NCBI GenBank assembly: GCA_016780605.1
Contig: JADHLS010000031.1
Location: 1-15,628 of the forward strand
Length of the DNA stretch: 15,628 nt
Direction: 5' to 3'
Source: Reyranella sp.
Lineage (GTDB): Bacteria > Pseudomonadota > Alphaproteobacteria > Reyranellales > Reyranellaceae
Shown here: positions 1,289 through 15,124 of the stretch, piece after piece
Numbering within the stretch: the first letter of the stretch is position 1
How the letters are laid out: each line of letters starts with the position of its first letter
The notes under the pieces: model-generated
Database searches by the model: none
What the model was told of the DNA's origin: nothing
The model's input: the letters and a program-made list of their open reading frames with translations, nothing else
Made by a program: the position numbers and the translations under genes

Positions 1289-1330
1289 ATAATCGGCGAG
1301 CCAGGCAGTGCGTTCTTTGATCCAGATCAA
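1289..1330 (-). promoter_or_regulatory. FNR/FixK-type promoter of glgA (box 1317-1330, -10 at 1289-1294)
   Basis: TTGATCCAGATCAA at 1317-1330 is a perfect TTGAT-N4-ATCAA palindrome, the consensus of FNR/FixK-family activators. Read toward glgA, a -10-like GATTAT (minus strand of 1289-1294) follows after 22 bases. This would place transcription start near 1282 with the box centred at -41.5 (class II geometry), leaving a leader of about 60 bases. The box and spacing are seen directly. The regulator and its activity are inferred. The palindrome could also act toward glgB. Confidence 0.7.
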
Positions 1331-1435
1331 GTTTGCATGGAAATCTTTGGCAAGAGTCGAACACTTCCCTCCCCGCAAACTGTCTTGCTGCGCAGCTCGC
1401 CAACGATCGACTCGGCTAAGCCTTGCCGATTGACC

Positions 1436-1477
1436 TTGATCTAGAACAAACTCGCAGCCCGTCGTCTGTCCAATAAT
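1436..1477 (+). promoter_or_regulatory. FNR/FixK-type promoter of glgB (box 1436-1449, -10 at 1472-1477)
   Basis: TTGATCTAGAACAA at 1436-1449 matches TTGAT-N4-ATCAA with one mismatch in the right half. AATAAT at 1472-1477 matches the -10 consensus at five of six positions. The 22-base gap puts the predicted start near 1484 with the box at -41.5. A start there lies downstream of the ATG at 1478 and upstream of the ATG at 1508, so it also bears on the choice of glgB start codon. Confidence 0.65.
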
Positions 1478-1494
1478 ATGCAGAGACGGCTCGC

Positions 1495-1499
1495 GGGGA
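1495..1499 (+). promoter_or_regulatory. Ribosome binding site deciding the glgB start
   Basis: GGGGA at 1495-1499 sits 8 bases before the ATG at 1508. The alternative in-frame ATG at 1478 has no purine-rich site before it and overlaps the predicted -10 element. This favours 1508 as the translation start. Confidence 0.6.
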
Positions 1500-1507
1500 T
1501 TTCGGCC

Positions 1508-3733
1508 ATGAAGCGAACTATCGAGCAGACGGCCAGCGCCGACGCGGCGACCATCGCTGCCGTTGTGCGTGGCGACCACGGCGATCCGTTCGCTTTCCTG
1601 GGCCTCCACGTCGACCCGACCGGAGCAGGGCTGCTCGTGCGCACCTTGCAGCCGACCGCCGAGCATGTCGCCGTGATCGACGCCGAAGACGGCGCCGTGG
1701 TTGGAACCTTGGACAAAGTGCACGATGCGGGCTTCTTCGCCGGCCGGCTCGACCGCCGTGCGTCGCGCTTCCCCTACCGCCTGCGCCTGGAGCTGGCGAG
1801 CGCGCAGCGCGATATCGACGATCCTTATCGCTTTCCGTCGGCGCTGAACGACGCCGAGCTTCGCCGCTTCGCCGCCGGCGACCATCTGCGGGCGCATGAA
1901 CTGCTCGGCGCCCGGCGCGTCGAGCTCGAAGGCGTCGAGGGGGTAGTGTTCGCGGTTTGGGCGGCGAACGCGTCCCGGGTCAGCGTGGTCGGCCCGTTTA
2001 ACGACTGGGATGGACGGCGCCACGCCATGCGCCTCCACCCGTCATGCGGCGTTTGGGAAATCTTTATTCCCGGCCTGCAGGATGGCGAACTCTACAAATA
2101 CGAAATCAGATCAGCGGCGGGCGAGCTCCTGCCGTTGAAGGCCGACCCCTACGGAACCCGGGCGGAGCGACCGCCCGCGACTGCCTCGATCGTGTGCTCG
2201 CCTGGCAGCTTCGCGTGGGACGACCAAGATTGGATGGCGCGACGCGCGCAGGCAAGCGCGAACGCCCGCCAGCGGCCGATGGCGATCTACGAGGTCCATC
2301 TCGGCTCGTGGAAGCGCGGCGCCGATCGCCGGCCGCTCGACTACCACGCGCTCGCTGCCGAACTCGTACCTTACGTGCGCGACATGGGGTTCACCCATAT
2401 CGAACTGCTGCCGATCGCCGAGCACCCGTTCGACGGTTCTTGGGGGTATCAGCCGGTCGGGATGTTCGCCCCGACCAGCCGGTTCGGCACGCCGGATGAT
2501 TTCCGCTGCTTCGTGCAGACCTGTCATCAGGCGGGCATCGGCGTGTTGATCGACTGGGTGCCGGCGCATTTCCCGTCCGACCCGCACGGCCTGGCTCGCT
2601 TCGACGGTAGCCATCTCTACGAGCACGCCGATCCGCGGCGTGGTCTGCACCCCGACTGGAACACGCTGATCTACAATTTCGGCCGTCGCGAGGTCGCGGC
2701 CTTTCTGATCTCGAACGCGCTCTACTGGATCGAAGCGTTCCACATCGACGGGCTGCGGGTCGACGCCGTCGCCTCGATGCTCTATCTCGACTACAGCCGC
2801 AGGGATGGTGAGTGGCTGCCCAACGCGCATGGCGGGCGCGAGAATCTCGAGGCACTCGCTTTGCTCCGTCGGCTCAACGAGGTTGTCTATGCGGAGGGCG
2901 CCGGCGCGATCACGATCGCTGAGGAATCGACGGCATGGCCCATGGTGTCGCGGCCGACCTCTCTCGGCGGTCTCGGCTTTGGCTACAAATGGAACATGGG
3001 CTGGATGCACGACACGCTCGACTATATGAGCAAGGATCCCGTGCATCGCTGCCACCATCACGACGGCCTGACCTTTGGTCTGCTCTACGCGTTCCACGAG
3101 AACTTTGTCCTGCCGCTGTCCCACGACGAGGTCGTGCACGGCAAGGGCTCGCTGCTCGGCCGCATGCCCGGCGACCGGTGGCAGAAGTTCGCCAACCTGC
3201 GTCTCTACTACGCCTTTCTCTACACCCAGCCTGGCAAGAAGCTGCTGTTCATGGGCGGCGAGTTCGCGCAGACGGCCGAGTGGGACCATGACCGTGCGCT
3301 CGACTGGCATCTGCTCGATGACCCGGACCATCGCGGCGTCCGACGCCTCGTCACCGATCTCAATCGGCTCTATCGCGGTACGGCCGCACTCCATGAGCTC
3401 GACGGCGAGGCCGAAGGCTTCGAGTGGATCGATTGCCATGACGCCGAGCAGAGCGTGATAAGCTATGTTCGCCGTGGACAGAGGCGCGCCGACCATGCCG
3501 TCGTCGTGTGCAACTTCACCCCGGTGGTGCGCCACGGCTATCGCATCGGCGTGCCCTACGGTGGGCACTATCGCGAGCGCATTAACACCGACGCGTGCGA
3601 CTATGGCGGCAGTGGCGTCGGCAACGGCGGTTTGGTCAAGGCCGAACCCGTGAGCTGGCACGGCCGGCCCTATTCGCTGGTCCTCACCCTGCCGCCGCTG
3701 GGCGCGCTTGCGCTCACGCCCGAGCCCGGCTAG
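1508..3733 (+). CDS. glgB: 1,4-alpha-glucan branching enzyme, GH13 family
   Basis: GlgB cuts alpha-1,4-glucan chains and re-attaches them as alpha-1,6 branches during glycogen synthesis. The protein is 741 residues, close to E. coli GlgB (728). It has an N-terminal domain with DPFAFLGLH, a CBM48 domain ([23 protein letters not shown]), then the GH13 barrel with [18 protein letters not shown]. The catalytic triad is visible as Asp419 in DGLRVDAV, Glu472 in AEEST and Asp540 in [13 protein letters not shown]. The spacings of 53 and 68 residues equal those of the E. coli triad. Start 1508 is preferred over 1478 because of its ribosome site and the predicted promoter. The glgX remnant begins 6 bases after the stop, so the operon glgB-(glgX)-malQ is likely. 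Intact and very probably functional. Confidence 0.97.
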
Positions 3734-3739
3734 GCGGGC

Positions 3740-4033
3740 ATGACGACGCAGCAGGCGCGCGTATGGCCTGCCAGCCCGACGCCGCTGGGCGCGACCCGGG
3801 ACGGCAACGGTGCCAATTTCGCGCTGTTCTCGACGCACCCGAAGGGCATGGAGCTCTGTCCGTTCCACCAAGCGGGAGAGCGCGAAACCGAGCGCCTCCG
3901 CCTGCCCAGCATCGCCAGCAGCGGGGAGACCGGCGTCGGCGACCTAGCGACCTTCGCCCCGGGCGCGCGCCATCCCGGCGAGCCGCGCGTGCTCGCACTG
4001 CTCCGTCGGCTGGGCAACGGGGCCACGGTATGA
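3740..4033 (+). pseudogene. glgX: Internally deleted remnant of glycogen debranching enzyme
   Basis: This 97-codon frame joins the two ends of GlgX with the middle missing. Residues about 7-56 resemble the start of the N-terminal CBM48 domain: VWPASPTPLGATRDGNGANF, then a version of the usual VELCLF strand, then GERETERLRLP. From about residue 66, LATFAPGARHPGEPRVLALLRR resembles the C-terminal tail that normally follows the catalytic barrel. The roughly 550-600 residues carrying the active site are absent, with a junction near 3905-3935, so debranching activity cannot be retained. Positions usually conserved look eroded (GATWDG reads GATRDG; VELCLF reads MELCPF). The frame is still open: it starts 6 bases after glgB and ends in ATGA shared with the malQ start, so it may be kept as a translational bridge. 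Assignment of the N-terminal half is strong; that of the tail is moderate. Confidence 0.8.
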
Positions 4034-6198
4034 GCGCGCTCGAGCGGCTGGCGCGCCGCGCCGGTATCGAGCCGCATTATCACGACATCTGGGGACGGCG
4101 GCGTTCCCTGTCGGAGGGCACCATGCGCGCCTTCCTGGCCGCGATGGAGATTGCCGCCACGACAGAGGCTGAGATCTCGGCGAGCCTGGTGGCGCTCGAG
4201 GCGGCACCGTGGCAACGGTCGCTCGACCCGGTCGTCGTGCTCATCGAGGATGCTCGCCCCCAGCGCGTCGACGTGCGTCTCGCAGCCGCGCCTGATGCGC
4301 TGCTGGCATGGCGCATCGATACCGAGGACGGTGCACACTTCGACGGCAGCGCCCGCTTGGGCGAGTTGCCGTTGATCGAGGCCAGCACCAGGGACGGCCG
4401 CATCGTCGAGCGCCGCGCGCTCGCGCTGCCGGAGGCGCTGCCGCTCGGGTATCACCGGCTCGCCGTGGCGGGCGCCGCGCTCGGCGACGGCGGCGCGGCC
4501 GAGACGACCTTGATTGTCACGCCCCACCGCGCCCACCTGCCTGATGCGCTCGCGCACGGACCCGGGATCTGGGGTCTGGCGCTGCAACTCTACGGCCTGC
4601 AGGGCCGGCGCAGCTGGGGCATGGGTGATTTCGGCGCCCTCGCCCGCTTCGCCGCCGACACCGCGCTGCTTGGCGCCGGCGCGCTCGGCCTCAACCCGCT
4701 GCACGCGCTGTTTCCGGGCAACCCAATGCACGCCAGCCCCTACTCGCCGTCGAGCCGTCGGTTCCTCAATCCACTCTACATCGATGTCGAGGCGGTGCCG
4801 GACTGGGTCGACATTTCGCTTGCCAGCGCCGATCGTGCGGCATTGGGCGACGGCGCGCTGGTCGACTATGTCGGCGTCGCCGCCGCCAAGGCTCTCGTGC
4901 TCGAACGGCTGTTTGCTACATTCCAGCGCAATCATCTGCAGCGAGGCAGCGCCCGCGCCGCAGCGTTCCGCGCCTTCCGGCACGCCGGCGGCGCGGCGCT
5001 CGATCGCTTCGCTGCTTTCGAGGCGCTGGCCGAGCATTTCCGCAGTGGCGATCCCGGTCACTGGTCCTGGCGCCATTGGCCAGATGATTTTCGCGATCCT
5101 AAGTCGCCGGCGGTCGCTGCGTTCGCGCGCGCCCACGAGGATCGCGTGCTCTTCCACCAGTATATGCAATGGGAGGCGGAGCGCCAGCTCGCCGCCGCCG
5201 CTGCGGTCTGCGCGCAAGGCGGCATGGCAGTCGGGCTCTACCGCGACCTGGCGCTCGGCGTCGACCCGCACGGCGCCGAGGCCTGGGCCGATCAGCGCGT
5301 CTTGGCCAACGGCATCTCGATCGGCGCGCCGCCGGACGGCTTCAGCCGAGCCGGCCAGAACTGGGGGCTGCCGCCATTCAATCCGCATGCGCTGCGCGCC
5401 GCCGCCTATCAGCCGTTCATCGAATGTCTGCGCGCCAACATGCGCCACGCCGGCGCGCTGCGCATCGACCACATCATGGGTTTCGCACGGCTGTTCTGGA
5501 TTCCGGCCGGCAAGGGCGCCGCCGAGGGCGGCTATGTACGCTACCCGCTCGACGAACTGGTCGCGATCACCGCGCTCGAGAGCCGGCGGGCGGGTTGCGC
5601 GGTGGTTGGCGAAGATCTCGGCACGGTGCCCGAAGGCCTGCGCGAACGCCTCGGCGCGGCGCACGTCCTGTCCACACGAGTGCTCTATTTCGAGCGCGAC
5701 GACGCGGGCTTCCGGCCGCCCGACGCCTATCCCGCCTTGGCCCACGTCGCGATCGGTACGCACGATCTGCCGACCTTTCCGGGCTGGTGGCGCGCGCGGG
5801 ACATAGAACTGCATGCAGCGCTCGGGGTGCTCAAGGAGCAGGATCAATTTGCGGCGCAGCAGCACGCCCGAGCGCGCGAACGCACCGAACTGGCAGCAGC
5901 GTTGCGTGCGGCGGGCCTCGAAATCTCCGGCGCGGCGCTGACGGATTCCGAGAGTGATCTCGCGGCGCTGGTCGACACGGTGTACCGGTTCCTGGCAGCC
6001 TCGCCGGGGCGGCTCCTGATAGTCCAGCTCGAGGACGTGCTGGGCGTCGAAGCGCAGGTCAACCTACCCGGTACCACGGACGAGCATCCTAACTGGCGAC
6101 GGAAGCTTGCTTTCAGCGCCGAGGATTTGGCCGCGCTGCCTCGCTTGCTCCGGCTGGCCGACGCGTTGCGCGCACTCCGTCCGCTTGCCGGGCGCTAG
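4030..6198 (+). CDS. malQ: 4-alpha-glucanotransferase (amylomaltase), GH77
   Basis: MalQ moves alpha-1,4-glucan segments between maltodextrins and releases glucose, working in cytoplasmic glycogen and maltodextrin turnover. From the ATG at 4030 the protein is 722 residues, the long E. coli-like form with an N-terminal beta-rich extension (about residues 1-165) before the GH77 barrel, which opens at GIWGLALQLYGLQGRRSWGMGDF. Catalytic residues visible are Asp480 in LRIDHIMGFARLFWIP, Glu528 in VVGEDLGTVP and Asp579 in THDLPTFPGWW. Spacings of 48 and 51 are close to E. coli MalQ. Start 4030 is chosen because it overlaps the upstream stop as ATGA; the frame extends upstream to 3595 only as a shadow of glgB. 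Codon usage is extremely GC-rich, like glgB. It is followed by a possible terminator. Confidence 0.96.
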   Translation: MSALERLARRAGIEPHYHDIWGRRRSLSEGTMRAFLAAMEIAATTEAEISASLVALEAAPWQRSLDPVVVLIEDARPQRVDVRLAAAPDALLAWRIDTEDGAHFDGSARLGELPLIEASTRDGRIVERRALALPEALPLGYHRLAVAGAALGDGGAAETTLIVTPHRAHLPDALAHGPGIWGLALQLYGLQGRRSWGMGDFGALARFAADTALLGAGALGLNPLHALFPGNPMHASPYSPSSRRFLNPLYIDVEAVPDWVDISLASADRAALGDGALVDYVGVAAAKALVLERLFATFQRNHLQRGSARAAAFRAFRHAGGAALDRFAAFEALAEHFRSGDPGHWSWRHWPDDFRDPKSPAVAAFARAHEDRVLFHQYMQWEAERQLAAAAAVCAQGGMAVGLYRDLALGVDPHGAEAWADQRVLANGISIGAPPDGFSRAGQNWGLPPFNPHALRAAAYQPFIECLRANMRHAGALRIDHIMGFARLFWIPAGKGAAEGGYVRYPLDELVAITALESRRAGCAVVGEDLGTVPEGLRERLGAAHVLSTRVLYFERDDAGFRPPDAYPALAHVAIGTHDLPTFPGWWRARDIELHAALGVLKEQDQFAAQQHARARERTELAAALRAAGLEISGAALTDSESDLAALVDTVYRFLAASPGRLLIVQLEDVLGVEAQVNLPGTTDEHPNWRRKLAFSAEDLAALPRLLRLADALRALRPLAGR

Positions 6199-6221
6199 CC
6201 TCCAGCGCTGCCGGCCTTTCT
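6187..6221 (+). terminator. Possible terminator hairpin overlapping the malQ stop
   Basis: GCCGGGCGCT (6187-6196) can pair with AGCGC (6204-6208) and CCGGC (6211-6215), giving a 10-base-pair GC-rich stem with a 2-base bulge and a 7-base loop that contains the end of the malQ stop codon. A short pyrimidine stretch, CTTTCTCC, follows. The T-run is weak, so efficiency is uncertain, but the position at the end of the glg operon is right. Confidence 0.4.
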
Positions 6222-6417
6222 CCGAACAAACTCCCCAAAGTCGTGCATCGACGCGAGTCGGCGTCAGCCTTCCAAAGCTGCTCACCCTTGGCGTCGTTAT
6301 CTACTTCGTCGCCCTGGCGCCGGCGCGGTGCGGGTCGTCTTTTCACATCAGCATTTGCAACCGTAGAGGCCGGCGGCGCAGCTCTCGCCGCTCATCGGCC
6401 CCAGGGGTTTGGGCTCT

Positions 6418-6460
6418 TTGATTCAGGTCAAGGCCATGATGATTGCTTTCTCCCTAGATT
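6418..6460 (+). promoter_or_regulatory. FNR/FixK-type promoter of the small-protein/beta-glucosidase unit
   Basis: TTGATTCAGGTCAA at 6418-6431 matches TTGAT-N4-ATCAA with one mismatch (GTCAA in the right half). A -10-like TAGATT at 6455-6460 follows after 23 bases, predicting transcription start near 6467 and a leader of about 22 bases that includes the AAGGAG ribosome site. The rest of the 290-base gap between malQ and the small gene (6222-6417) shows no convincing gene or signal. Confidence 0.6.
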
Positions 6461-6488
6461 ACGTCGATCGAGAACCAAGGAGTTCGAT

Positions 6489-6803
6489 ATGAAAGCCACC
6501 GTGAAGACCGCCATCCTTGCTGCCTCCGTTGCTCTGATCGGCAGCGTTGGTGCGGTCTCATCGGGCTGGGCGCAGCAGCAGCCCGGCGCCACTCCCGCGC
6601 CGCAGGCGACGACGCCCACTCAGCCGGGGCCGGGCATGGGCCAGCAGATGATGCAGCAGGGCATGGAGCACGGCAAAGCCGGCCAGAGCATGAGCAAGCA
6701 GATGGAAGAAAAGGGTCACCAGCAGGGCGGCCAGCATGCGCCCATGGGTTCCGGAACGACGCCACAACCTTCGCAGGGCACGTCCCCAGCACCTTCCAAG
6801 TAG
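6489..6803 (+). CDS. Small secreted Gln/Met/His-rich protein, unknown function
   Basis: This 104-residue protein is not one I recognise. It starts with a textbook Sec signal peptide: MKATVKTA, a hydrophobic core of about 16 residues, and a probable cleavage near residues 27-29 (SGWAQQQ). The mature part is low in complexity: a Pro/Thr/Ala-rich segment, then MGQQMMQQGMEHGKAGQSM and a Gly/Gln/His stretch, ending in Pro/Ser/Thr. Methionine and histidine are clustered, as in some periplasmic metal-binding proteins, but no defined metal motif is present. Start 6489 has AAGGAG at 6477-6482 and lies just after the predicted promoter; the frame is open further upstream to 6243, but that part would precede transcription start. 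The stop lies 11 bases before the beta-glucosidase start, so the two are probably co-transcribed. Its link to sugar metabolism is unknown. Confidence 0.85.
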   Translation: MKATVKTAILAASVALIGSVGAVSSGWAQQQPGATPAPQATTPTQPGPGMGQQMMQQGMEHGKAGQSMSKQMEEKGHQQGGQHAPMGSGTTPQPSQGTSPAPSK

Positions 6804-6814
6804 GGGTAACTGCC

Positions 6815-8200
6815 ATGGACATCGATTTAATGCCGAAGCCGGACGCTCCCATCCTCGTCGCCCGCCAAGCTCTTCCGTTCGGATTTGTTTGGGGCGTTTC
6901 AACCTCGAGTTATCAGGTCGAGGGCGCTGCACGAGAAGGTGGCCGCGGTCCCAGTGTGTGGGATGTCTTCTCTCGGGTTCCAGGGAAGATCGCCAATGGC
7001 GATACGGGAGACGTCGCGTGCGACCATTATCACCGCTATTCTGAAGATATTGCGCTCATGCACGAGATGGGGGTGAACGCCTACCGCTTCTCCGTTGCAT
7101 GGCCGCGGGTGCTGCCAACGGGCAGGGGCGCCGTCAACGAAGCGGGTGTGGCTTTCTACGACCGACTCATAGACAGCTTGTTGGTGGCAGGGATCGAACC
7201 ATGGCTCTGCCTCTATCACTGGGATTTGCCGCAGGCGTTGCAAGATTTGGGCGGATGGGCCAACCGCGACATCGTTAGCTGGTATGCCGACTATGCCCGG
7301 ATTATCGCGCAGCGCTTCGGAGACCGAGTGAAGCGCTTCTCCACATTCAACGAACCTTCGGTGTTCAGCCTCTTCGGTTACGCCTTCGGCTGGCACCCGC
7401 CCGCCACCTCCGATCGAGCCGACCACTTCAAGACCATCCATCATATCAATCTGGCGCACGGCGCGGGCGTCGATGTGCTACGTGCCAATGTCGGGCATGC
7501 ATTGATCGGCTGTATCCACAACATGCAGCCGAGCCGTCCCGTCGCACCCGGCGGCGAGGATGCGGCGGCTGCGGCGATGCTGGACGAGTACTGGAACAAG
7601 GCCTTTCCGGATCCGCAAATGCTGGGCCATTACCCGCCCGGCCTCGCTCGCTTGATCGAACCCTATCAACGCAATGGCGATCTTGCCCGCATTCAGCGGC
7701 CGGTGGACTGGCTGGGGATCAACCACTACTCGCCGATCTATGCCAGGGCCGCTCCCGATTCTCCTCTTGGTTTTGCCTGGGCGGACGCGCCGTCAGGCGG
7801 GCCGCGCTCGCCCATCGGCTGGCCGATCGACCCTGACGCGTTCCGTGAGACTCTGCTTGATGCAAGTCATCGTTACGGATTGCCAATCTACGTCACGGAG
7901 AACGGCGCCGGCAGCGACGAAAAGCTGGATAGCTCAGGCAAAGTGCTCGATTACGAGCGCATCGCGTACCTGAAGCTCTATACTGAGGCTTTGCGTGAGG
8001 CAGTGCGCAAGGGGGCGGATGTCCGAGGCTATTTTGTCTGGTCGCTGCTGGACAACTTCGAGTGGGGAGCGGGATATGCCAACCGGTTTGGCCTCGTGTA
8101 TGTAGACTATCCAACGCAGCAACGCGTCCCCAAGGCATCGGCGCTGTGGTATCGACAGCTGATCAAAGAGGAAGCGCTCCGCGCGGTCGGCGCGGCATGA
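6815..8200 (+). CDS. bglB: Beta-glucosidase, GH1 family
   Basis: This enzyme hydrolyses beta-glucosides such as cellobiose or aryl-beta-glucosides to glucose by a retaining mechanism. It is 461 residues, the usual GH1 size, with no signal peptide, so it is cytoplasmic. The N-terminal GH1 signature FVWGVSTSSYQVEGA is present. Glu180 in TFNEP is the acid/base, Glu362 in VTENG is the nucleophile, and the aglycone-side strand WSLLDNFEWGAGY is intact. A ribosome site (AGGGG, overlapping the stop of the small secreted gene) lies 9 bases before the start. The last codons overlap the glucokinase start as ATGA, so the released glucose would be phosphorylated by its neighbour. Substrate specificity within GH1 (beta-glucoside or beta-galactoside) cannot be fixed from sequence alone. 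The gene symbol is by family. Confidence 0.93.
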   Translation: MDIDLMPKPDAPILVARQALPFGFVWGVSTSSYQVEGAAREGGRGPSVWDVFSRVPGKIANGDTGDVACDHYHRYSEDIALMHEMGVNAYRFSVAWPRVLPTGRGAVNEAGVAFYDRLIDSLLVAGIEPWLCLYHWDLPQALQDLGGWANRDIVSWYADYARIIAQRFGDRVKRFSTFNEPSVFSLFGYAFGWHPPATSDRADHFKTIHHINLAHGAGVDVLRANVGHALIGCIHNMQPSRPVAPGGEDAAAAAMLDEYWNKAFPDPQMLGHYPPGLARLIEPYQRNGDLARIQRPVDWLGINHYSPIYARAAPDSPLGFAWADAPSGGPRSPIGWPIDPDAFRETLLDASHRYGLPIYVTENGAGSDEKLDSSGKVLDYERIAYLKLYTEALREAVRKGADVRGYFVWSLLDNFEWGAGYANRFGLVYVDYPTQQRVPKASALWYRQLIKEEALRAVGAA

Positions 8201-9147
8201 CGACGTTGCTACTCGGCGACATCGGCGCGACACAAGCTCGCTTCGCCGTTCTCTCGAGTTCTTCGCTCGGACCTGTTAGTTCTCTCGCTGTTGTTTCATT
8301 TGCGACGATTCAAGCCGCGCTGCGCCATTTTCTTGATCTTCAGCCTGCCGCTAAGTTCGACCAGGCCATCCTGGCCGTCGCCGGGCCAGTTGAAGCCGGT
8401 CGCTGTATCATGACCAACAGCCGGTGGGTCATCGACGCGGCAGAGCTTCGGGTGCAATTCGGGTTCAACTCAGTTCGGCTGATCAACGATCTTGTAGCGG
8501 TGGCGTATGCCTTGCCACACCTCGCATCAACAGACGTGAGGGAGTTTGGCCTTGGCAAGGCAAAGGTCGGAGAGCCAGTGGCAGTGGTAGCGCCGGGAAC
8601 GGGATTGGGAGTGGCGTGCCTGCTGGACGGCAAGGGAGAGCGGGTGCTGGCAAGTGAGGGCGGACATGCCACGCTTGCGGCATCCAACGTTCGTCAGGCG
8701 GCCATAATCGCCGTCCTCCAACGTCGCTTCGGGCACGTGTCGGCTGAGCGCGTGTTGTCGGGCGCCGGCATCGTCAATCTCTATGCAGCCATCGCAGAAA
8801 TTGAAGGCATCGAGGCTAAACCTCTCACTCCGGCCCAAATCACGCGCGCTGCTCTCGATGGCACTTGTGCGCTCAGTTGCGAAGCACTCGATGCATTCTG
8901 CGCTTTTCTTGGTGCCGCAGCGGGCGATGCCGCTCTGATGTTCGGCGCACGCGGCGGCATGTATGTTGGCGGCGGAATCGTGCCCAGGATCATCGACTAC
9001 ATTGGCCAAGCCAACTTCCGCATGCACTTCGAAACCAAGGGCCGGCTCAGCGGCTATCTTGCGACCATTCCGCTCAAGGTCATTCAGCGGCCTGATCCGG
9101 CTTTTCTAGGATTGGCGACCGCCCTCGGAGGCATGGGCCATGGCTGA
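8197..9147 (+). CDS. glk: Glucokinase
   Basis: Glucokinase phosphorylates glucose with ATP to glucose-6-phosphate in the cytoplasm. The 316-residue protein belongs to the bacterial Glk family (E. coli Glk 321). Its N-terminal phosphate loop is LGDIGATQARFA, followed by LINDLVAVAYALP (catalytic Asp region), VAPGTGLGVACL (second phosphate loop), EGGHATLAA and YVGGGIVPRI. The first loop departs from the usual GDIGGTNARFA at two positions (Gly to Ala, Asn to Gln). Start 8197 is chosen for the ATGA overlap with the beta-glucosidase stop; the frame is open upstream only as a shadow. The 3' end overlaps the next gene by 8 bases. It supplies glucose-6-phosphate, the substrate of zwf encoded about 1.5 kb away on the other strand. 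Confidence 0.94.
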   Translation: MTTLLLGDIGATQARFAVLSSSSLGPVSSLAVVSFATIQAALRHFLDLQPAAKFDQAILAVAGPVEAGRCIMTNSRWVIDAAELRVQFGFNSVRLINDLVAVAYALPHLASTDVREFGLGKAKVGEPVAVVAPGTGLGVACLLDGKGERVLASEGGHATLAASNVRQAAIIAVLQRRFGHVSAERVLSGAGIVNLYAAIAEIEGIEAKPLTPAQITRAALDGTCALSCEALDAFCAFLGAAAGDAALMFGARGGMYVGGGIVPRIIDYIGQANFRMHFETKGRLSGYLATIPLKVIQRPDPAFLGLATALGGMGHG

Positions 9148-10240
9148 TACCGATGCCGCGGCCTTCGGCAGCCACGGATCGATGCGCCGCTTCTGGCAAA
9201 GCGCGCGAGGCTTCTGGAGAGGAGATACGAGCTGGTATGCGTGGGGCCTGATCGGATTGCTGGTGATATGCGTATCGCTGCAAACTGTTGTGCAGTATCA
9301 GCTGAATCTATGGAACCGCGACTTTTTCAACGCTCTGGAACGTCGCGATAGCAGTGAGATCTGGCTCCAGACGCGCACCCTCCTCGTGTTGGCGACGACA
9401 AGCATCGTGTTGGCAGTCGTAGCGGTTTGGGGCCGCATGAGCTTCCAGCGACGGTGGCGTCACTGGTTAACATCACGGCTGGTGGCCATCTGGATTGCCA
9501 ATCGCAAGTCCTGGGCACCCGATGCAAAGGATGGCGAAGCACAGCTCGTCGAGTATCGGATTGCGGAAGATGCCAGGATTGCAACGGATGCGCCCATCGA
9601 CTTCATGGTCGGCTTGCTGGGGTCTATGCTCGCGGCCACGACGTTTGTCGTCGTCTTGTGGAATGTAGGCGGCTCGGTTGATCTTTCGCGTTTTGGCCTC
9701 GGCCAAGCGGTGCCAGGCTATCTGGTGTATGCAGCCGTGGGCTACTCAGCACTGACCACGGTGGCAATGATGAAGATGGGTGGCAACATGACATCCGTCA
9801 TCGCGCAGAAGAGCCAGGCAGAGTCAGAGCTGAAATTCGCGCTTGCTGATTTGCGCGAACATTTCCATCAACGCGTGGTCACCGATGCAGCCCTGCCCGA
9901 TCCTGCGCTCAGGACGGCGGTCGAGACGCGGCTTGGCGAAGTCGTGACGCAATGGCGACAACTGTGCGGCCAACACATGCGCACGACCTTGATTTCGCAT
10001 GGAAATTCTATCTTGGCGCCGCTCATCGGGCTAATTCTCTGTGTGCCCAATTACATACACGGTACAATGTTGCTTGGTGAAATGACGCAGTCGGCAGCGG
10101 CCTTCGTCGCCGTTCAAGGTGCCTTCAACTGGCTGGTAGATAATTTTCCACGCATAGCGGACTGGGCGTCCTCCGCGCGTCGGGTCGGAACTCTGGTGTT
10201 AGGCTTTGGTCGACCCGATAAGAAGTGCAGTCCTCTCTAA
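9140..10240 (+). CDS. SbmA/YddA-like ABC transporter transmembrane protein lacking an ATPase domain
   Basis: This 366-residue inner-membrane protein resembles the transmembrane half of the SbmA/BacA and YddA families. Hydrophobic segments are at about residues 33-51, 80-98, 155-177, 189-211 and 291-308. Family-like features are LNLWNRDFFNALERRD, VEYRIAEDARIATD and FNWLVDNFPRIADWASSARR. In YddA-type proteins (about 560-600 residues) an ATPase domain follows this last motif. Here the protein stops about 15 residues later, and no Walker A motif is visible in any plus frame up to 10600. It is either an NBD-less SbmA-like carrier or a truncated ABC transporter. It overlaps the glk stop by 8 bases, so it is translationally coupled to glk. 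Its substrate is unknown. Confidence 0.8.
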   Translation: MADTDAAAFGSHGSMRRFWQSARGFWRGDTSWYAWGLIGLLVICVSLQTVVQYQLNLWNRDFFNALERRDSSEIWLQTRTLLVLATTSIVLAVVAVWGRMSFQRRWRHWLTSRLVAIWIANRKSWAPDAKDGEAQLVEYRIAEDARIATDAPIDFMVGLLGSMLAATTFVVVLWNVGGSVDLSRFGLGQAVPGYLVYAAVGYSALTTVAMMKMGGNMTSVIAQKSQAESELKFALADLREHFHQRVVTDAALPDPALRTAVETRLGEVVTQWRQLCGQHMRTTLISHGNSILAPLIGLILCVPNYIHGTMLLGEMTQSAAAFVAVQGAFNWLVDNFPRIADWASSARRVGTLVLGFGRPDKKCSPL

Positions 10241-10256
10241 TGACACTCAAATCTTG

Positions 10257-10607
10257 TCATTGGATGACGCTGTTGGGACCTGGCAGGTCCGATGTTGCAA
10301 CAGGCCGGTGCGCAAAGTCATCAGGCGGGTGCGGCGCCTCGGTCTGTTGCAGAACGGAGACGTTGTGAGGTGCGTACACGATCGCATCAGATTGCCGATC
10401 GCGCTGCGCGGCCGTTCGGTGTTCGGAGTCGCGGTTAGGGATCTCGAGGACGACATCGGCGTAGGCGAGCGAGACGACCAACGTCTCGTTCAGGAACTCG
10501 TCCCGCAGCCGGACCGCTACGGCAACCGACGCGCAGAGAGGACCTCCTCCCCTCGTCACCAGCGCTCCCTCGATGTCGGAGATCGGAAGGCGGCTCGGGG
10601 TCGTCAC
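10257..10607 (-). CDS. Hypothetical protein, GTGA-coupled to zwf
   Basis: A 116-codon frame starts with GTG at 10607-10605, overlapping the zwf stop as GTGA, and ends 16 bases from the convergent permease gene. It begins TTPSRLPISDIEGALVTRGG and contains a moderately hydrophobic middle (LNETLVVSLAYADVVLEIP). I recognise no family. It does not resemble 6-phosphogluconolactonase or 6-phosphogluconate dehydrogenase, the usual partners of zwf. The GTGA overlap is the main argument for translation. The C-terminal third is Pro/His/Gln-rich and may be a decayed or fused tail. If it is not real, 10241-10603 is a 363-base stretch with no gene, only an imperfect inverted repeat at 10297-10350. Confidence 0.4.
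   Translation of the reverse strand: MTTPSRLPISDIEGALVTRGGGPLCASVAVAVRLRDEFLNETLVVSLAYADVVLEIPNRDSEHRTAAQRDRQSDAIVYAPHNVSVLQQTEAPHPPDDFAHRPVATSDLPGPNSVIQ
10297..10350. repeat. Imperfect inverted repeat with 32-base loop
   Basis: GCAACAGGCCG at 10297-10307 pairs with CGGTCTGTTGC at 10340-10350 with one mismatch. The left arm overlaps a perfect 10-base palindrome, TGTTGCAACA (10293-10302). It lies just beyond the convergent ends of the permease gene and the minus-strand ORF. No T-run follows on either strand, so a terminator role is only a guess. Confidence 0.3.
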
Positions 10608-12145
10608 GCGAGCTCAAGCCAGTGCCGGCCGTCACGCGCCAGCAGAGCCTCGGCGGCGGCGGGGCCCTCGCTGCCCGCGGCGTAGCGTTCGACACCGGCC
10701 GGCGATGCCAGCATCGGCTGCACTGCTGCCCACCCGGCCTCCACGTTGTCGGCGCGCTGGAACAATGTCGCGTCGCCGATCAGCGCGTCGTAGAGGAGCG
10801 TTTCGTAGCCGGTGCTCGGCCCGGTCTTGAACCAGTCAGCGTACCGGAAGTCCATCCTGACATCGGCGAGGCGTACGGTTAGACCGGGCTCCTTCGCGCT
10901 CAGGCAGAGCGAGATACCCTCGCTTGGCTGGATGTGCAGCACCAGGAAATTGGGCGTCAGGCACTCAACGGGCGTGCCGCGGAACATGGCGTAGGGCGCC
11001 TGCTTGAAGTGAATGGCGATCTCGGTTCGCCGCACTGCCAGCCGCTTGCCGGTGCGGATATAGAATGGCACGCCGGCCCACCGCCAGTTGTCGATATGCA
11101 GTTTCATCGCGATGTAGGTCTCGGTGACGCTGTCGGACGCCACGTTCGGTTCCTGCCGGTAGGCGGGGACCGGCATGCCGCGCAGGGCGCCACTGTCGTA
11201 CTGGCCGCGCACGACGTCGCACGCCAACTCGTCGGCGCCCATCGGCCGGATTGCCTGCACGACCTTCGCCTTCTCCGCCCGCACCGCGTCGGCGTCGAAG
11301 CCGTTGGGCGGCTCCATTGCGCTCATGGCCAGCAACTGCATCATGTGGTTGGGCACCATGTCACGCAGCGCGCCGGTCGCCTCGTAGAAGCGCCCGCGCC
11401 TCTCGACCCCGACGGTCTCGGCCGCGGTGATCTGAACGTGGTCAATGTGGTCGCGCCGCCACAGCGGCTCGAAGATGCCGTTGGCGAAGCGGAGCGCCAG
11501 GATGTTCTGCACCGTCTCCTTGCCGAGGAAGTGGTCGATCCGGAACACTTGGCTCTCCGCCACCAGACCGAGGAGGCGCCCGTCCAGCGCGCGCGCGGAG
11601 GCGAGGTCGGTGCCGAAGGGCTTCTCGATGACGACGCGGCGGAAGCCTCTCTCTTCCTCCCGCATCAACCCCGTCGCCGCCAGCCGCTCAACGATCGGAC
11701 CGAAGAAGCGCGGCGCTGTGGCGAGGTAGAACACGCAGTTGCCGTGGCCCCGTATTCGCCGGATCTCGGCCAGCCGATCGGCCAGACGGTGATGGGTGCC
11801 GGGGTCCTCGAACTCGCCGGTCAGGTAGGACAGGCGGTCGCGCAGCCAACCCCAGGCACGGCCGTCGAGCACACTAGCCGATAATTCGCCGGCCTTGTCC
11901 GCCACGAAGGCGTGTATGGCCTCGGTGAGCCGCCCTCGATAGGCGTCGTCCGTTCTCTCGTTGTGGTCGATGCCGATCACGCTGAAGCCGTCGGCCAGCA
12001 GGCCGGCGACACTCAGATTGTACAAGGCCGGCATCAGCAAGCGCTTGGTGAGGTCGCCATTCGCACCGAAGATTACCAGCGTCGACGCGGGCGCCGGCGT
12101 CGCCCGTGACAGTGTGGCGGGGTCGGGACAAAAACGTGCGTCCAT
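10604..12145 (-). CDS. zwf: Glucose-6-phosphate 1-dehydrogenase
   Basis: Zwf oxidises glucose-6-phosphate to 6-phosphogluconolactone with NADP or NAD, opening the oxidative pentose phosphate and Entner-Doudoroff routes. From the ATG at 12145 the protein is 513 residues, typical for the family. The nucleotide-binding motif is VIFGANGDLTKRLLMPALYNL (loop at residues 27-34), the active-site signature is RIDHFLGKE (Asp204, His205), and YIRTGKRLAVRRTEI lies in the C-terminal domain. The frame runs further upstream, but 12145 has a GGGAG ribosome site and fits homologue starts. That ribosome site lies inside the end of the pntA fragment, whose stop falls 4 bases before the zwf ATG. No pgl, gnd or edd follows; instead an unknown ORF is coupled by GTGA. 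Codon usage is GC-rich, like the glg genes. Confidence 0.96.
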   Translation of the reverse strand: MDARFCPDPATLSRATPAPASTLVIFGANGDLTKRLLMPALYNLSVAGLLADGFSVIGIDHNERTDDAYRGRLTEAIHAFVADKAGELSASVLDGRAWGWLRDRLSYLTGEFEDPGTHHRLADRLAEIRRIRGHGNCVFYLATAPRFFGPIVERLAATGLMREEERGFRRVVIEKPFGTDLASARALDGRLLGLVAESQVFRIDHFLGKETVQNILALRFANGIFEPLWRRDHIDHVQITAAETVGVERRGRFYEATGALRDMVPNHMMQLLAMSAMEPPNGFDADAVRAEKAKVVQAIRPMGADELACDVVRGQYDSGALRGMPVPAYRQEPNVASDSVTETYIAMKLHIDNWRWAGVPFYIRTGKRLAVRRTEIAIHFKQAPYAMFRGTPVECLTPNFLVLHIQPSEGISLCLSAKEPGLTVRLADVRMDFRYADWFKTGPSTGYETLLYDALIGDATLFQRADNVEAGWAAVQPMLASPAGVERYAAGSEGPAAAEALLARDGRHWLELA

Positions 12146-12149
12146 GGCC

Positions 12150-12338
12150 TTAGCTCCCAGCCTCCGGTTCGGCGATCTTGCGGTCGGGCGCATGTGGTGG
12201 TTCGAAATGGCATCGCCCGCCCGACTCGATCGCCACTTGTGCACCCAGCCGTGCGAGTCTCTCGACGACGTTTGGCACCATGGCCACGCGTTGCTCGCCG
12301 GGTCGTGTTTCCTTCAGCACCGCGATTTTGATTGCCAT
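12150..12338 (-). pseudogene. pntA: 5' fragment of NAD(P) transhydrogenase subunit alpha
   Basis: This 62-codon frame starts at the ATG at 12338 behind a GGAG ribosome site. Its first ~40 residues are the typical PntA/alanine dehydrogenase N-terminal strand-helix-strand: MAIKIAVLKETRPGEQRVAM, then VPNVVERLARLGAQVAIESG. PntA subunits are roughly 370-510 residues. Here the similarity ends at about residue 42 and the remaining 20 residues (RCHFEPPHAPDRKIAEPEAG and one Ser) look unrelated to the family. The NAD-binding domain is missing, so it cannot be a functional transhydrogenase. It ends 4 bases before zwf, and its last codons contain the zwf ribosome site, so its translation could couple to or modulate zwf. 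The neighbouring aldh gene ends 115 bases upstream. Confidence 0.82.
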
Positions 12339-12385
12339 GGGGAAAACTCCGCGACCTTTCGACGAACGCACTCGGGCGCCACCGC

Positions 12386-12397
12386 GGCAGTACTGCC
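12386..12397. repeat. Perfect 12-base palindrome GGCAGTACTGCC
   Basis: GGCAGTACTGCC reads identically on both strands and lies 48 bases upstream of the pntA-fragment/zwf start, in the gap after the aldehyde dehydrogenase gene. The position would suit an operator, but no known regulator is recognised. Confidence 0.35.
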
Positions 12398-12408
12398 TGA
12401 ACAGGCGA

Positions 12409-12443
12409 GGCCATGGGAGATGGCCCTAAAAACACCTCCCATG
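12409..12443 (-). terminator. Inverted repeats just downstream of the aldehyde dehydrogenase gene
   Basis: CATGGGAG (12412-12419) and CTCCCATG (12436-12443) form a perfect 8-base stem with a 16-base loop. An alternative, overlapping stem GGCCAT/ATGGCC (12409-12414 with 12420-12425) excludes the first. On the minus strand they begin 10 bases after the dehydrogenase stop. The only T-run (GTTTTT) lies within the loop of the larger hairpin, not after the stem, so a standard terminator is doubtful. Confidence 0.35.
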
Positions 12444-12453
12444 AGTGGCTCGG

Positions 12454-13845
12454 TCAGAATGCAGCGTTGATATCGACGACGTCGATGAGCTTGTGGTTGA
12501 CGAACTCCTTGATGCCGAGGCCGAGAAGTTCCCGGCCATAGCCGGAGTGGCGAATACCACCGAAAGGCAGGTCGGCCTTGACCATCGTCGGATGGTTGAC
12601 GAATACCATGCCAGTGGAAATTCTCCTGGCCACCTCGGCGCCGTGGCTCGGATTGGAGGTAAATACTGAACCACCTAGTCCGAACGGAGAGTCATTGGCA
12701 ATTCGAACGGCGTCGTCTTCATCCTTTGCTCGAAATAGCATGGAGACGGGCCCGAAGAACTCCCAGTTGCGAGCTGGATTGTTATCCGCGACGTTGATCA
12801 GAATCGTCGGCTGCACGAAAGCTCCCTGATTGGGAACCTTAGGTCCGACTTCGGTAGCCGTGGCGCCAAGGGTGACTGCCTGTCGGATCTTCTCCTTGAG
12901 TTCGTCGGCTGCGCTCTGCGATGACAGGGGAGCTAACGTGGTCGCAGGGTCGAAGGGGTCGCCCGCGTGCAGACCGGCCACACCGGCGGTATAGCGCTTG
13001 ACAAATTCATCATAGATCTTGTCATCGATGATCATCCGCTTGGACGACACGCAGACCTGCCCACCGTTCCAGTGGCGGCCGAAGACCGCCCACTTGACGG
13101 TCTTTTCCAGGTCGGCGTCGGCCAGCACCACGAACGCATCCGCGCCGCCGAGTTCAAGCGTCGACTTCTTGAGGGCCTTCCCCGCCGCGGAAGCGACGAC
13201 CGCGCCGGCGCCTTCGGAACCCGTGAGCGCAACGCCACGCACAAATGGGTGATTAAGGATGAGCTCGATCTGGGAATGTGCTGCATAGAGGTTCTTGAAA
13301 GCCCCTTTCGGAAGGCCTGCCCGCAGCATGAGCTTCTCACACGCCGCCGCACTCTGCGGGACAATACCGGCGTGCTTGAGCAAGATCGTGTTGCCTGCGG
13401 ACAGTTGCGGCGCAATGATGCGCGCGACTTGGTAATAGGGAAAGTTCCATGGCTCGATGGTCAGCAATACGCCGAGGGGCTCATGGACGAGCACTGCGTC
13501 ACCTTCGGCCAGATTGGCTACGGGCAGTTTCTCCGGCGTGAGCAACTTCTCGGCATTCTTGGCGTAGTACTCGAAAATGGCGGCGGACAGCTCCACTTCG
13601 GCCTTTGCCTCACAAATCACCTTGCCCATTTCCAGAGTGAGAAGCTTGGCGTAGGCGTCGATATCCTTGCGCAGTAGATCCGCCGCCTTCTGCATGACCT
13701 TGGCGCGGTCGGCGAACGAGGTCTTCTTCCAGGACAGAAACGCCTTATGAGCGTTCTCGATTGCCTGAGTGACTTCGGCGTCGGTGGCGTCGGGGAACGT
13801 CTTCTCCACTTTGCCCGTGTAAGGATTCGTAGTTGCATACGGCAT
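12454..13845 (-). CDS. Aldehyde dehydrogenase, succinate-semialdehyde dehydrogenase (Sad/YneI) type
   Basis: The enzyme oxidises an aldehyde, probably succinate semialdehyde or a similar short aldehyde, to the acid with NAD(P). It is 463 residues, matching E. coli Sad (462) rather than the longer GabD. Motifs visible are the N-terminal NPYTGKVEKTFPD, EPWNFPYYQVAR (NAD site), LKHAGIVPQSA, TGSEGAGAVVAS, LELGGADAFVVL with general-base Glu231, and WNGGQVCVSSKRMI with nucleophile Cys265. The 34-residue Glu-Cys spacing is canonical. Start 13845 has AAGGAG 7 bases upstream; the frame extends to 13935 but without a ribosome site. It is divergent from the alcohol dehydrogenase, with an FNR-type box between them. 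The exact substrate is uncertain. Confidence 0.92.
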   Translation of the reverse strand: MPYATTNPYTGKVEKTFPDATDAEVTQAIENAHKAFLSWKKTSFADRAKVMQKAADLLRKDIDAYAKLLTLEMGKVICEAKAEVELSAAIFEYYAKNAEKLLTPEKLPVANLAEGDAVLVHEPLGVLLTIEPWNFPYYQVARIIAPQLSAGNTILLKHAGIVPQSAAACEKLMLRAGLPKGAFKNLYAAHSQIELILNHPFVRGVALTGSEGAGAVVASAAGKALKKSTLELGGADAFVVLADADLEKTVKWAVFGRHWNGGQVCVSSKRMIIDDKIYDEFVKRYTAGVAGLHAGDPFDPATTLAPLSSQSAADELKEKIRQAVTLGATATEVGPKVPNQGAFVQPTILINVADNNPARNWEFFGPVSMLFRAKDEDDAVRIANDSPFGLGGSVFTSNPSHGAEVARRISTGMVFVNHPTMVKADLPFGGIRHSGYGRELLGLGIKEFVNHKLIDVVDINAAF

Positions 13846-13990
13846 GACAGTCTCCTTGTTAGATATGAAGCGCATTCGTCTGGACATGATGGGACGACAT
13901 ACTCGCCAGTCCGGTTTGTTCTCCGAGCCGCGCAAGCGTCAGTCTGCATCCAGTCGGCGTTCGTTCCTTCCGACTTAAGCCTTCTGATTT

Positions 13991-14032
13991 ATTGAACCAC
14001 CAGCAGCTCCACAGCGGTTTGATCTCGATCAA
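13991..14032 (-). promoter_or_regulatory. Possible minus-strand promoter of the aldehyde dehydrogenase sharing the central FNR box
   Basis: The symmetric box at 14019-14032, read toward the aldehyde dehydrogenase, is followed after 22 bases by TTCAAT (minus strand of 13991-13996), a 4 of 6 match to the -10 consensus. Transcription would start near 13984 with a leader of about 139 bases. This is weaker than the plus-strand arrangement, and the gene may have another promoter. Confidence 0.35.
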
Positions 14033-14059
14033 GTGCGGGAGGCGTGGGTCCGCTTATCC
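14019..14059 (+). promoter_or_regulatory. FNR/FixK-type promoter of the alcohol dehydrogenase (box 14019-14032, -10 at 14054-14059)
   Basis: TTGATCTCGATCAA at 14019-14032 is a perfect TTGAT-N4-ATCAA palindrome. TTATCC at 14054-14059 is a plausible -10 after 21 bases, giving transcription start near 14066-14067, a box centre at about -41.5, and a 32-base leader holding the GGAG ribosome site. Activation at low oxygen is inferred from the known FNR/FixK consensus. Confidence 0.7.
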
Positions 14060-14098
14060 TCTTCTCAAGCAATCACGCGATCACACGGAGATTCGGTT

Positions 14099-15124
14099 AT
14101 GGCGAAGACAATGAGGGCCGCAGTGGTTCACGCTTTCGGCAAGCCGTTAAAAATCGAGGAAGTTCCGATCCCAACTCCTGGGCCGGGAGAAGTTCTCGTC
14201 AAGATCGTCGCCACGGGCGTCTGCCATACGGATCTTCATGCAGCAGGCGGCGACTGGCCCGTGAAGCCGGCGCCGCCTTTCATTCCCGGCCACGAAGGTG
14301 CTGGGATCGTGGCGGCGCTGGGTCCGGGTGTGATGGGACTTAAGGAGGGTGATGCGGTCGGCATCGCATGGCTGCACGATGCCTGCGGCGGATGTGAGTT
14401 TTGCCAGACCGGCTGGGAGACGCTCTGCGAGTCCCAGCACATGAGCGGGTACACCGTGAACGGCAGCTTCGCAGAATACGCGATCGGCGCGGCCCCTTAT
14501 GTCGCGCGGCTTCCCAAAAATGTCGATTTCGCCGAAATGGCGCCAATCCTTTGCGCCGGCGTTACGACCTACAAGGGGATAAAGGAAACCGAAGCGAAAC
14601 CCGGAGAGTGGATCGCCATTTCAGGTATCGGTGGCCTTGGCCATGTCGCTATACAATACGCAAAGGCGATGGGTCTCCATGTTGCAGCGCTCGACGTCAC
14701 CGAAGAGAAGCTCGCTCTTGCCCGACAGCTCGGCGCCGAGGTTACGGTGAATGCCAAGGCACCGGATGCCGCAGCCCAAGTGGTCAAAGCGACAGGCGGC
14801 GGTGCGCATGGCGTGCTGGTGACGGCCGTGTCGATTCCGGCCTTCGCCCAGGCGCTGAGCTTGGTACGGCGCAAGGGCACCATCAGCCTCAATGCTCTGC
14901 CGCCCGGCGATTTTCCGACGCCGATCTTCGATGTGGTGCTGAAGCGCATCACTATTCGTGGCTCAATCGTCGGCACGCGCAAGGATCTCGCCGAGGCAAT
15001 CGAGTTCGCCTCCGAAGGCAAGGTCAAGGCGCACATTCACAAGGCGAAGCTCGAAGACATCAACACGATCTTCAGCAACCTCAGTGCAGGGAAGGTTGAT
15101 GGCCGCATGGTCATGACGTTGTGA
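14099..15124 (+). CDS. adhP: Zinc-dependent alcohol dehydrogenase, AdhP type
   Basis: This medium-chain dehydrogenase interconverts primary alcohols such as ethanol with aldehydes using NAD(H), typically in fermentation. The 341-residue length is standard. Catalytic zinc ligands are Cys42 in GVCHTDLH, His65 with Glu66 in PGHEGAGIV, and Cys152 in [11 protein letters not shown]. Structural zinc ligands are Cys96, 99, 102 and 110. The Rossmann loop GIGGLG is at 176-181, followed by the acidic end of strand 2 (LDVTEEK), which favours NAD. Start 14099 has GGAG upstream; the frame is open back to 14033, but that start would precede the predicted transcription start. It is paired divergently with the aldehyde dehydrogenase, and the two could link alcohol, aldehyde and acid. 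Only 39 bases separate it from the broken adaptor gene. Confidence 0.95.

Follow-up and report, generated by a model that had tools for sequence, protein, structure and literature searches.

Predicted FNR/FixK-type class II promoters before glycogen, β-glucosidase–glucokinase and alcohol dehydrogenase genes in a Reyranella genome

Introduction

Do genes for glycogen synthesis, glucoside cleavage and alcohol conversion that lie side by side on one contig of Reyranella sp. share a single promoter type that answers to low oxygen? The question is raised by contig JADHLS010000031.1 of assembly GCA_016780605.1 (15 628 nucleotides; hereafter the window), which is the whole of contig C448 in a draft genome of 4.34 Mb in 515 contigs with a completeness of 60.7%. 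The gene order is glgA (− strand); glgB, a glgX remnant and malQ (+); a small open reading frame (ORF), a GH1 β-glucosidase-family gene, glk and an SbmA/BacA-like gene (+); zwf (−); an aldehyde dehydrogenase gene (−); and adhP (+). An earlier note on this DNA had proposed that palindromic boxes of the form TTGAT-N4-ATCAA recur in the three main intergenic regions and place these genes under one oxygen-responsive regulator of the CRP/FNR family. Our analysis indicates, with a probability of about 80%, that the four sites are activator sites of the FNR/FixK family at class II promoters and that the window holds three gene groups of a predicted low-oxygen regulon. These groups would comprise glgA with glgB-(glgX remnant)-malQ; the small ORF, GH1, glk and sbmA-like genes; and adhP, perhaps together with the divergent aldehyde dehydrogenase gene.

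Results and discussion

A search of the window with TTGATNNNNATCAA returned 12 matches with two or fewer mismatches, compared with a mean of 2.60 and a largest value of 9 in 200 shuffles. Exactly four of them have zero or one mismatch and all four are located outside genes; the other eight have two mismatches, including one (1430–1443) that overlaps the glgB box. Perfect boxes are found at 1317–1330 (TTGATCCAGATCAA, with its centre 102.5 bp before glgA) and at 14019–14032 (TTGATCTCGATCAA, in the gap from which the aldehyde and alcohol dehydrogenase genes diverge). The box before glgB at 1436–1449 (+, TTGATCTAGAACAA) and that before the small ORF and GH1 unit at 6418–6431 (+, TTGATTCAGGTCAA) each contain one mismatch, so that all four boxes are where the earlier note had placed them. 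The relaxed pattern TTGAY-N4-RTCAA, in which Y/R variation was allowed because TTGAC sites bind FnrL according to a table in PMC2908626, is matched exactly by three of the four boxes with a spacer of exactly 4, among them the 6418–6431 box, and by the fourth with one mismatch. The same window search gave no box with zero or one mismatch upstream of zwf or immediately upstream of glk.

The relaxed pattern occurs 41 times in the 4.34 Mb genome and its backwards counterpart four times; the corresponding counts are 15 and 0 for perfect TTGATN4ATCAA and 134 and 11 when one mismatch is allowed. The same half-sites at spacers of 5–12 give 37 pooled sites (4.6 per spacer) and 13 backwards over the whole genome, which is the fair control for spacing, in contrast to spacer counts from the chosen contig sample described below. 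The excess at spacer 4 (41 versus 4.6 expected per spacer) has a P value of 6 × 10−25. Three of the 41 sites fall in the 15.6 kb window (Poisson P = 5 × 10−4 at the genome density and 8 × 10−7 at the wrong-spacer density). Intergenic DNA contains 36 of the 41 sites, whereas only 12.3% of the DNA is non-coding in a sample of 65 contigs (560 763 bases of the 4.34 Mb, window included) that consists of all holders of the 41 sites, 34 others picked at steps by number and C350. Genes were called with a home-made codon-based caller and Pfam; small genes were missed (the ORF at 6489–6803 was overlooked and glk was cut short), so that a few of these intergenic sites may sit inside short unrecognized genes. 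The called gene points away from the site in 31 of the 36 intergenic cases, and 28 of the 41 sites are within 300 bases before a called gene. The boxes are therefore a feature of upstream regions rather than of coding DNA, where the earlier note had said that an equal frequency would count against it.

In Escherichia coli class II FNR promoters the box centre is near −41.5 and the −10 element is 22 bases past the box, the gap required when the box is centred at −41.5 and the −10 element spans −12 to −7. The same geometry is found in the window, in another organism and with the spacing read from the sequence alone. The −10-like hexamers are GATTAT of glgA (1289–1294, −; 22 bases past the box; 4/6 to TATAAT), AATAAT of glgB (1472–1477, +; 22 bases; 5/6), TAGATT before the small ORF and GH1 (6455–6460, +; 23 bases; 4/6) and TATCCT of adhP (14055–14060, +; 22 bases; 4/6). 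These gaps of 22 or 23 bases lie within the 21–23 bases first given; the adhP hexamer is better framed at 14055, one base to the right of the 14054 of the earlier note. The predicted starts are consistent with short leaders (glgA ATG at 1221 on the − strand, glgB ATG at 1508, small ORF at 6489 and alcohol dehydrogenase ATG at 14099). The geometry was also assessed over 28 site–gene pairs of the genome with the box centre 35–150 bases before the gene, a set in which a site between divergent genes may count twice. The mean match to TATAAT peaks 22 bases past the box (2.18 of 6), a value reached in none of 2000 shuffles. With the two window pairs removed, the remaining 26 pairs still peak at 22 (2.04; 2 of 2000 shuffles), as do 80 pairs from the Reyranella-type loci of relatives described below, reduced to 66 after removal of near-copies (2.3; 0 of 2000 shuffles). 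With three window boxes at 22 bases, one at 23 and the peak at 22 in three sets of pairs, the proposal that a single FNR/FixK-type class II architecture recurs is upheld, and a predicted box centre near −41.5, the class II activator position, is supported. The FixK box of fixK1 has been reported with its axis between −41 and −40 (PMC3596328).

The remaining boxes of the genome indicate the kind of regulon to which the window genes would belong. The ccoN gene (727 bits, cut-off 583) is preceded by a box at 5818–5831 of contig C426 and followed by ccoO and ccoG. Further box-linked genes encode universal stress proteins, a DsbD-like protein, cytochrome b561, a ribosome hibernation-type protein, PPK2, a GH65 protein, a radical SAM protein and others; the Pfam scan covered 30 box-associated proteins, a part of the box-linked genes. 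Such a set is typical of FNR/FixK regulons in Alphaproteobacteria, for which the cbb3 oxidase operon is a classical target, and the glg, GH1–Glk and alcohol genes, which carry the same boxes, are predicted to be members of it, as had been proposed. A 6.6 kb contig of the genome (L184, G000:C201) contains four boxes around genes for a GH65 glycoside phosphorylase/hydrolase, a DUF2267 protein, a ribosome hibernation-type protein with a cold-shock domain and a universal stress protein, and is a second carbohydrate link of the regulon.

Five proteins of the genome score over the HTH_Crp_2 cut-off, two of which were studied further. One is encoded on the ccoN contig C426 (L164:17320–17997) and has FixK2 (4i2o) as its best PDB match (E = 1 × 10−53). 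The other, on C146 (L165:1564–2295), matches FixK2 (best PDB match, E = 3 × 10−23) and FNR structures and has an N-terminal CX2CX7C motif (CDGCVGRSTNIC), the spacing of which we take to be that of the iron–sulfur cluster-binding cysteines of FnrN/FnrL. The motif ETVSR is common to both proteins.

Membership in the predicted FNR/FixK regulon is most strongly supported for the GH1–Glk unit, with the box conserved in two bacterial groups. It consists of a small Gln/Met-rich ORF (6489–6803, +) with a start that resembles a signal peptide by eye and with no Pfam match, the GH1 β-glucosidase-family gene (6815–8200, +; Glyco_hydro_1, E = 7 × 10−151), glk for glucokinase (8197–9147, +; Glucokinase, E = 1 × 10−101) and, at its end, a gene for an SbmA/BacA-like membrane protein (9140–10240, +; ABC_membrane_2 and SbmA_BacA); the GH1-Glk-SbmA order is also present in many relatives. 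The small ORF, the first gene after the 6418 box, gave no tblastn match in 79 GH1 relative loci. The nearest relatives of the GH1 protein are encoded in two groundwater metagenome genomes (78–79% identity), followed by many from Reyranella and Enhydrobacter, mostly at 69–72%. A Reyranella-type set of 32 loci was chosen by hand on identity and gene order (L024–L051, L083, L088, L101 and L102; L096 was left out for its lack of upstream DNA) and was searched for boxes with at most one mismatch in the non-coding part of the 1.7 kb that precede GH1, a range that includes boxes before an upstream gene. Such a box is present in 28 of the 32 loci, compared with 0–3 of 32 for other spacers. The best box is directly before GH1 (<250 bp) in nine loci and ∼0.95–1.3 kb upstream, before a preceding gene, in 19; in L032 the preceding gene with the upstream box encodes a zinc alcohol dehydrogenase. 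Five loci (L031, L041, L045, L048 and L088) contain pairs of perfect boxes 25–26 bases apart, which may be tandem sites; the place in L032 that corresponds to these pairs is flanked by genes of the DUF992 and phasin types.

A second set of GH1 loci contains seven from Bradyrhizobium and one from Blastochloris. All seven Bradyrhizobium loci have a box within 130 bases of GH1, while other spacers give none in the eight loci of the set; no box was found at the one Blastochloris locus. The pattern TTGAYN4RTCAA is matched exactly in the five Bradyrhizobium loci with glk next to GH1 and with one mismatch in the other two. In L066, L071, L076, L077 and L081, from strains that include BTAi1, GH1 is followed by the glucokinase gene and the exact box is 67–71 bases before GH1. 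In Bradyrhizobium diazoefficiens, glk (blr4658) and the PEP synthase gene (blr4655) are listed as induced in microoxia (PMC6515984).

The glycogen genes of the window are glgA (1–1221, −; Glyco_transf_5, E = 5 × 10−79; start by the gene caller), the C-terminus of which runs off the contig, glgB for the branching enzyme (1508–3733, +; GlgB_N, CBM_48 and Alpha-amylase_C), the N-terminal remnant of a GlgX-like debranching enzyme gene (3740–4033, +; a called ORF, matched by tblastn with residues 4–68 of the GlgX of genome G008 at 46%) and malQ for a GH77 4-α-glucanotransferase (4030–6198, +; Glyco_hydro_77, E = 4 × 10−120). G008 carries a full-length glgX (L163:9115–11220) in the place of the remnant. 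Upstream DNA was available for 55 glgB genes, 27 from a search of 61 genomes and 28 further best-scoring genes from 385 genomes. A perfect box within 500 bases of glgB was found in three of the 55, namely in the window, in G008, which belongs to the same genus, and in G080, which belongs to a different family. Wrong spacers gave no perfect match. Among the 54 other genes 0.03 perfect boxes would be expected by chance (P = 4 × 10−4 for two or more). One further site, with one mismatch, precedes glgB in L105, from an AT-rich genome, and is additional to the three perfect cases. The order in G008 is α-glucan phosphorylase, glgA, box, glgB, glgX and malQ, and its phosphorylase gene has a box of its own 211 bases upstream, in common with a divergent gene; in G080 the box is followed by glgB, glgX and malQ and then, one gene further on, by a phosphorylase-like gene.

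In a tree of 42 of the 55 glgB sequences (13 were dropped), the glgB typical of the genus falls into a clade of its own (support 100/99) that lacks the box. Both kinds are present in G008, and the genus' two accessory glgB genes, those of the window and G008, fall outside the usual clade (100/99). Four of nine glgA copies have a box within 500 bases (the window, G011, G008 and G033, the last at 244 bases), with ten weaker matches left uncounted. The second glgA of the genome (L300, G000:C159) is 49% identical to that of the window, and its contig also carries a zwf-like gene. No box was found on the 5.1 kb contig (C399) of the phosphorylase-type gene of the genome, nor at the phosphorylase relatives of two other genomes (L265 and L266). 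Judged from these sequences, the glycogen link looks real where it is present, but narrow and patchy, and a low-oxygen switch on glycogen genes looks rare.

The alcohol branch consists of adhP for a zinc alcohol dehydrogenase (14099–15124, +; NCBIfam NF006940 AdhP, 354.8 bits, cut-off 344) and the divergent aldehyde dehydrogenase gene (12454–13845, −), the product of which has NADP-dependent succinic semialdehyde dehydrogenase as its closest family, although its score of 464 bits falls short of the cut-off of 730. A shorter feature of this part of the window is a 62-residue ORF at 12150–12338 (−) beginning MAIKIAVLKETRPGEQRVAMVP, which we presume to resemble the N-terminus of the NAD(P) transhydrogenase α subunit, cut short upstream of zwf. 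Among the genes marked as direct FixK2 targets in B. diazoefficiens are adhP (bll5655), a succinate-semialdehyde dehydrogenase gene (bll3998), the type to which the window enzyme is nearest, though below its cut-off, and an Hsp20 gene (PMC6515984). A zinc alcohol dehydrogenase is also in the FixK list of PMC2908626, according to which extended regulons differ between close species.

Several observations weigh against the reading of the four sites as FNR/FixK-family activator sites at class II promoters, or against a single regulator. Outside the two groups above, in a third set of 38 GH1 loci from other Proteobacteria and other phyla, a box is present in two of the 35 usable loci, which is the level of the spacer control. 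Perfect boxes precede only two of the 54 other glgB genes, and the glgB box of the window has its mismatch within a half-site. Of the glgA copies other than that of the window, only three of eight have a box, one of them 244 bases away, and none was found in the 500 bases before the second glgA of this very genome. The adhP box recurs in one of the eight other orthologues fetched (two of nine with that of the window). At single promoters the TATAAT match is weak (4/6 at 21–23 bases in seven of the 28 pairs, with 0.7 expected), so that the class II reading is valid for the set and not for every member, and no −10-like hexamer is visible at 22 bases on the glgA side of the box that glgA and glgB share in G008. 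The genome encodes two candidate regulators with the same ETVSR motif rather than one, and neither of them reaches the NCBIfam equivalog cut-off for FnrL or for FixK; they are hence named FNR-like and FixK-like only. What had been claimed for the glycogen and alcohol genes is accordingly held in part. For glgA and glgB, the window boxes and the two other perfect glgB cases favour predicted membership in the regulon and the narrow distribution, with the usual glgB clade of the genus lacking the box, does not; for adhP, the FixK2 precedent in B. diazoefficiens (PMC6515984) is in favour and the scarcity of the box among orthologues is not.

These points bear unequally on the alternatives. An origin by chance, as palindromes or as inverted repeats of another kind in GC-rich DNA, is highly improbable: one-mismatch sites do occur alone (five in 285 kb of the 34 unselected contigs), but the tests of spacer, intergenic placement, −10 spacing and conservation rule out such an origin for the set. 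The 1436–1449 box is the weakest of the four, because one-mismatch sites also arise alone in non-coding DNA (two in 29.7 kb of these contigs), and it relies also on its good −10 hexamer. It is unlikely that the glg boxes bind the regulator only to repress or fine-tune genes that are chiefly run by something else. FnrL both represses and activates (Table 2 of PMC2908626) and the box is rare among glgB genes; against this, the glgA and glgB boxes are 22 bases from a −10-like hexamer, which is the activating class II position.

The identity of the signal and the number of regulators are separate matters. CRP/FNR superfamily sites read by a protein that senses nitric oxide or another signal instead of oxygen (NnrR/DNR type) seem quite unlikely to us. 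Such a reading could draw on the possible overlap of NnrR and FixK sites (PMC5596199) and on the five HTH_Crp_2 proteins, of which two were studied; set against it are the boxes that precede ccoN and universal stress genes, which are commonly under oxygen control, and a Pfam scan of 30 proteins, a part of those linked to boxes in a 61% complete genome, in which no denitrification family was seen. A division or sharing of the promoters between the FixK-like protein of C426 and the FNR-like protein of C146, with graded co-regulation, is a serious possibility that falls somewhat short of even odds, and it is compatible with FNR/FixK-family activation at class II promoters. It is favoured by the ETVSR motif in both proteins and by the very similar sites recognized by FnrN and FixK (PMC4999443). 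FNR/FixK-family activation remains our preferred explanation, and judged from the sequence it is likely that one regulator governs all units and that oxygen is the signal.

Comparison with known systems distinguishes the familiar from the new. The FixK2 regulon of B. diazoefficiens resembles that of the window genome in having a FixK-type regulator with cbb3 oxidase, a universal stress protein, AdhP and a succinate-semialdehyde dehydrogenase marked as direct targets, but glk bears no such mark and the main text contains neither 'glycogen' nor 'glg' (PMC6515984). The FnrL/FNR and FixK regulons of Alphaproteobacteria (Dufour et al., 2010) share TTGAT-N4-ATCAA with TTGAC variants and the core targets cco and universal stress protein, while their main text likewise lacks both terms (PMC2908626). 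A reconstruction of FnrN/FixK regulons in Alphaproteobacteria gives the consensus TTGANCNNGATCAANG as common to FnrN and FixK; 'glycogen' appears in it once, in the reference list, and 'glg' is absent from the main text (PMC4999443). The PhaR–FixK2 link of B. diazoefficiens, as told in PMC6305480, also connects a carbon store with a low-oxygen regulator of the FixK type, although the store is polyhydroxybutyrate rather than glycogen and PhaR is involved. A literature search that took in few subscription papers and not the original FixK2 regulon paper turned up no account of glgA or glgB under FNR/FixK control, so that this absence is weak. The glycogen branch would be the new part of a promoter architecture and regulon of known kind, and the GH1–Glk and AdhP branches appear to fit known FixK biology.

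Conclusions

We infer binding, the activating direction, the oxygen signal and the physiological role from the features described above. In the proposed mechanism, a fall in oxygen would lead the FNR-like protein, with its cysteines for an iron–sulfur cluster, or the FixK-like protein to bind the boxes and recruit RNA polymerase. At low oxygen α-glucan would then be built and remodelled, β-glucosides would be cleaved, with phosphorylation of the glucose released, and alcohol and aldehyde conversion would dispose of reduced cofactors, alongside the cbb3 oxidase. Tentatively, and with the odds somewhat against it, the accessory glgA/glgB-glgX-malQ cassette, joined by α-glucan phosphorylase in G008 and distinct from the usual glgB of the genus, may be a dedicated low-oxygen α-glucan module that three or more genomes of Alphaproteobacteria (the window, G008 and G080) have placed under an FNR/FixK switch, with glycogen synthesis and turnover under limited respiration and not only in carbon excess. 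If so, the presence of GH1–Glk on the same switch in the window would make storage, mobilization and fermentation one oxygen-gated programme.

The box and the target list are provided here for a little-studied genus, and the Bradyrhizobium loci with GH1, glucokinase and box show this coupling in organisms amenable to genetic work. The predicted regulon would add glycogen synthesis and a conserved glucoside–glucose unit to the alphaproteobacterial low-oxygen regulon, which is known for genes of respiration, haem, stress and, in part, fermentation, and, if true, would link the glycogen store to the oxygen supply through a single promoter class.

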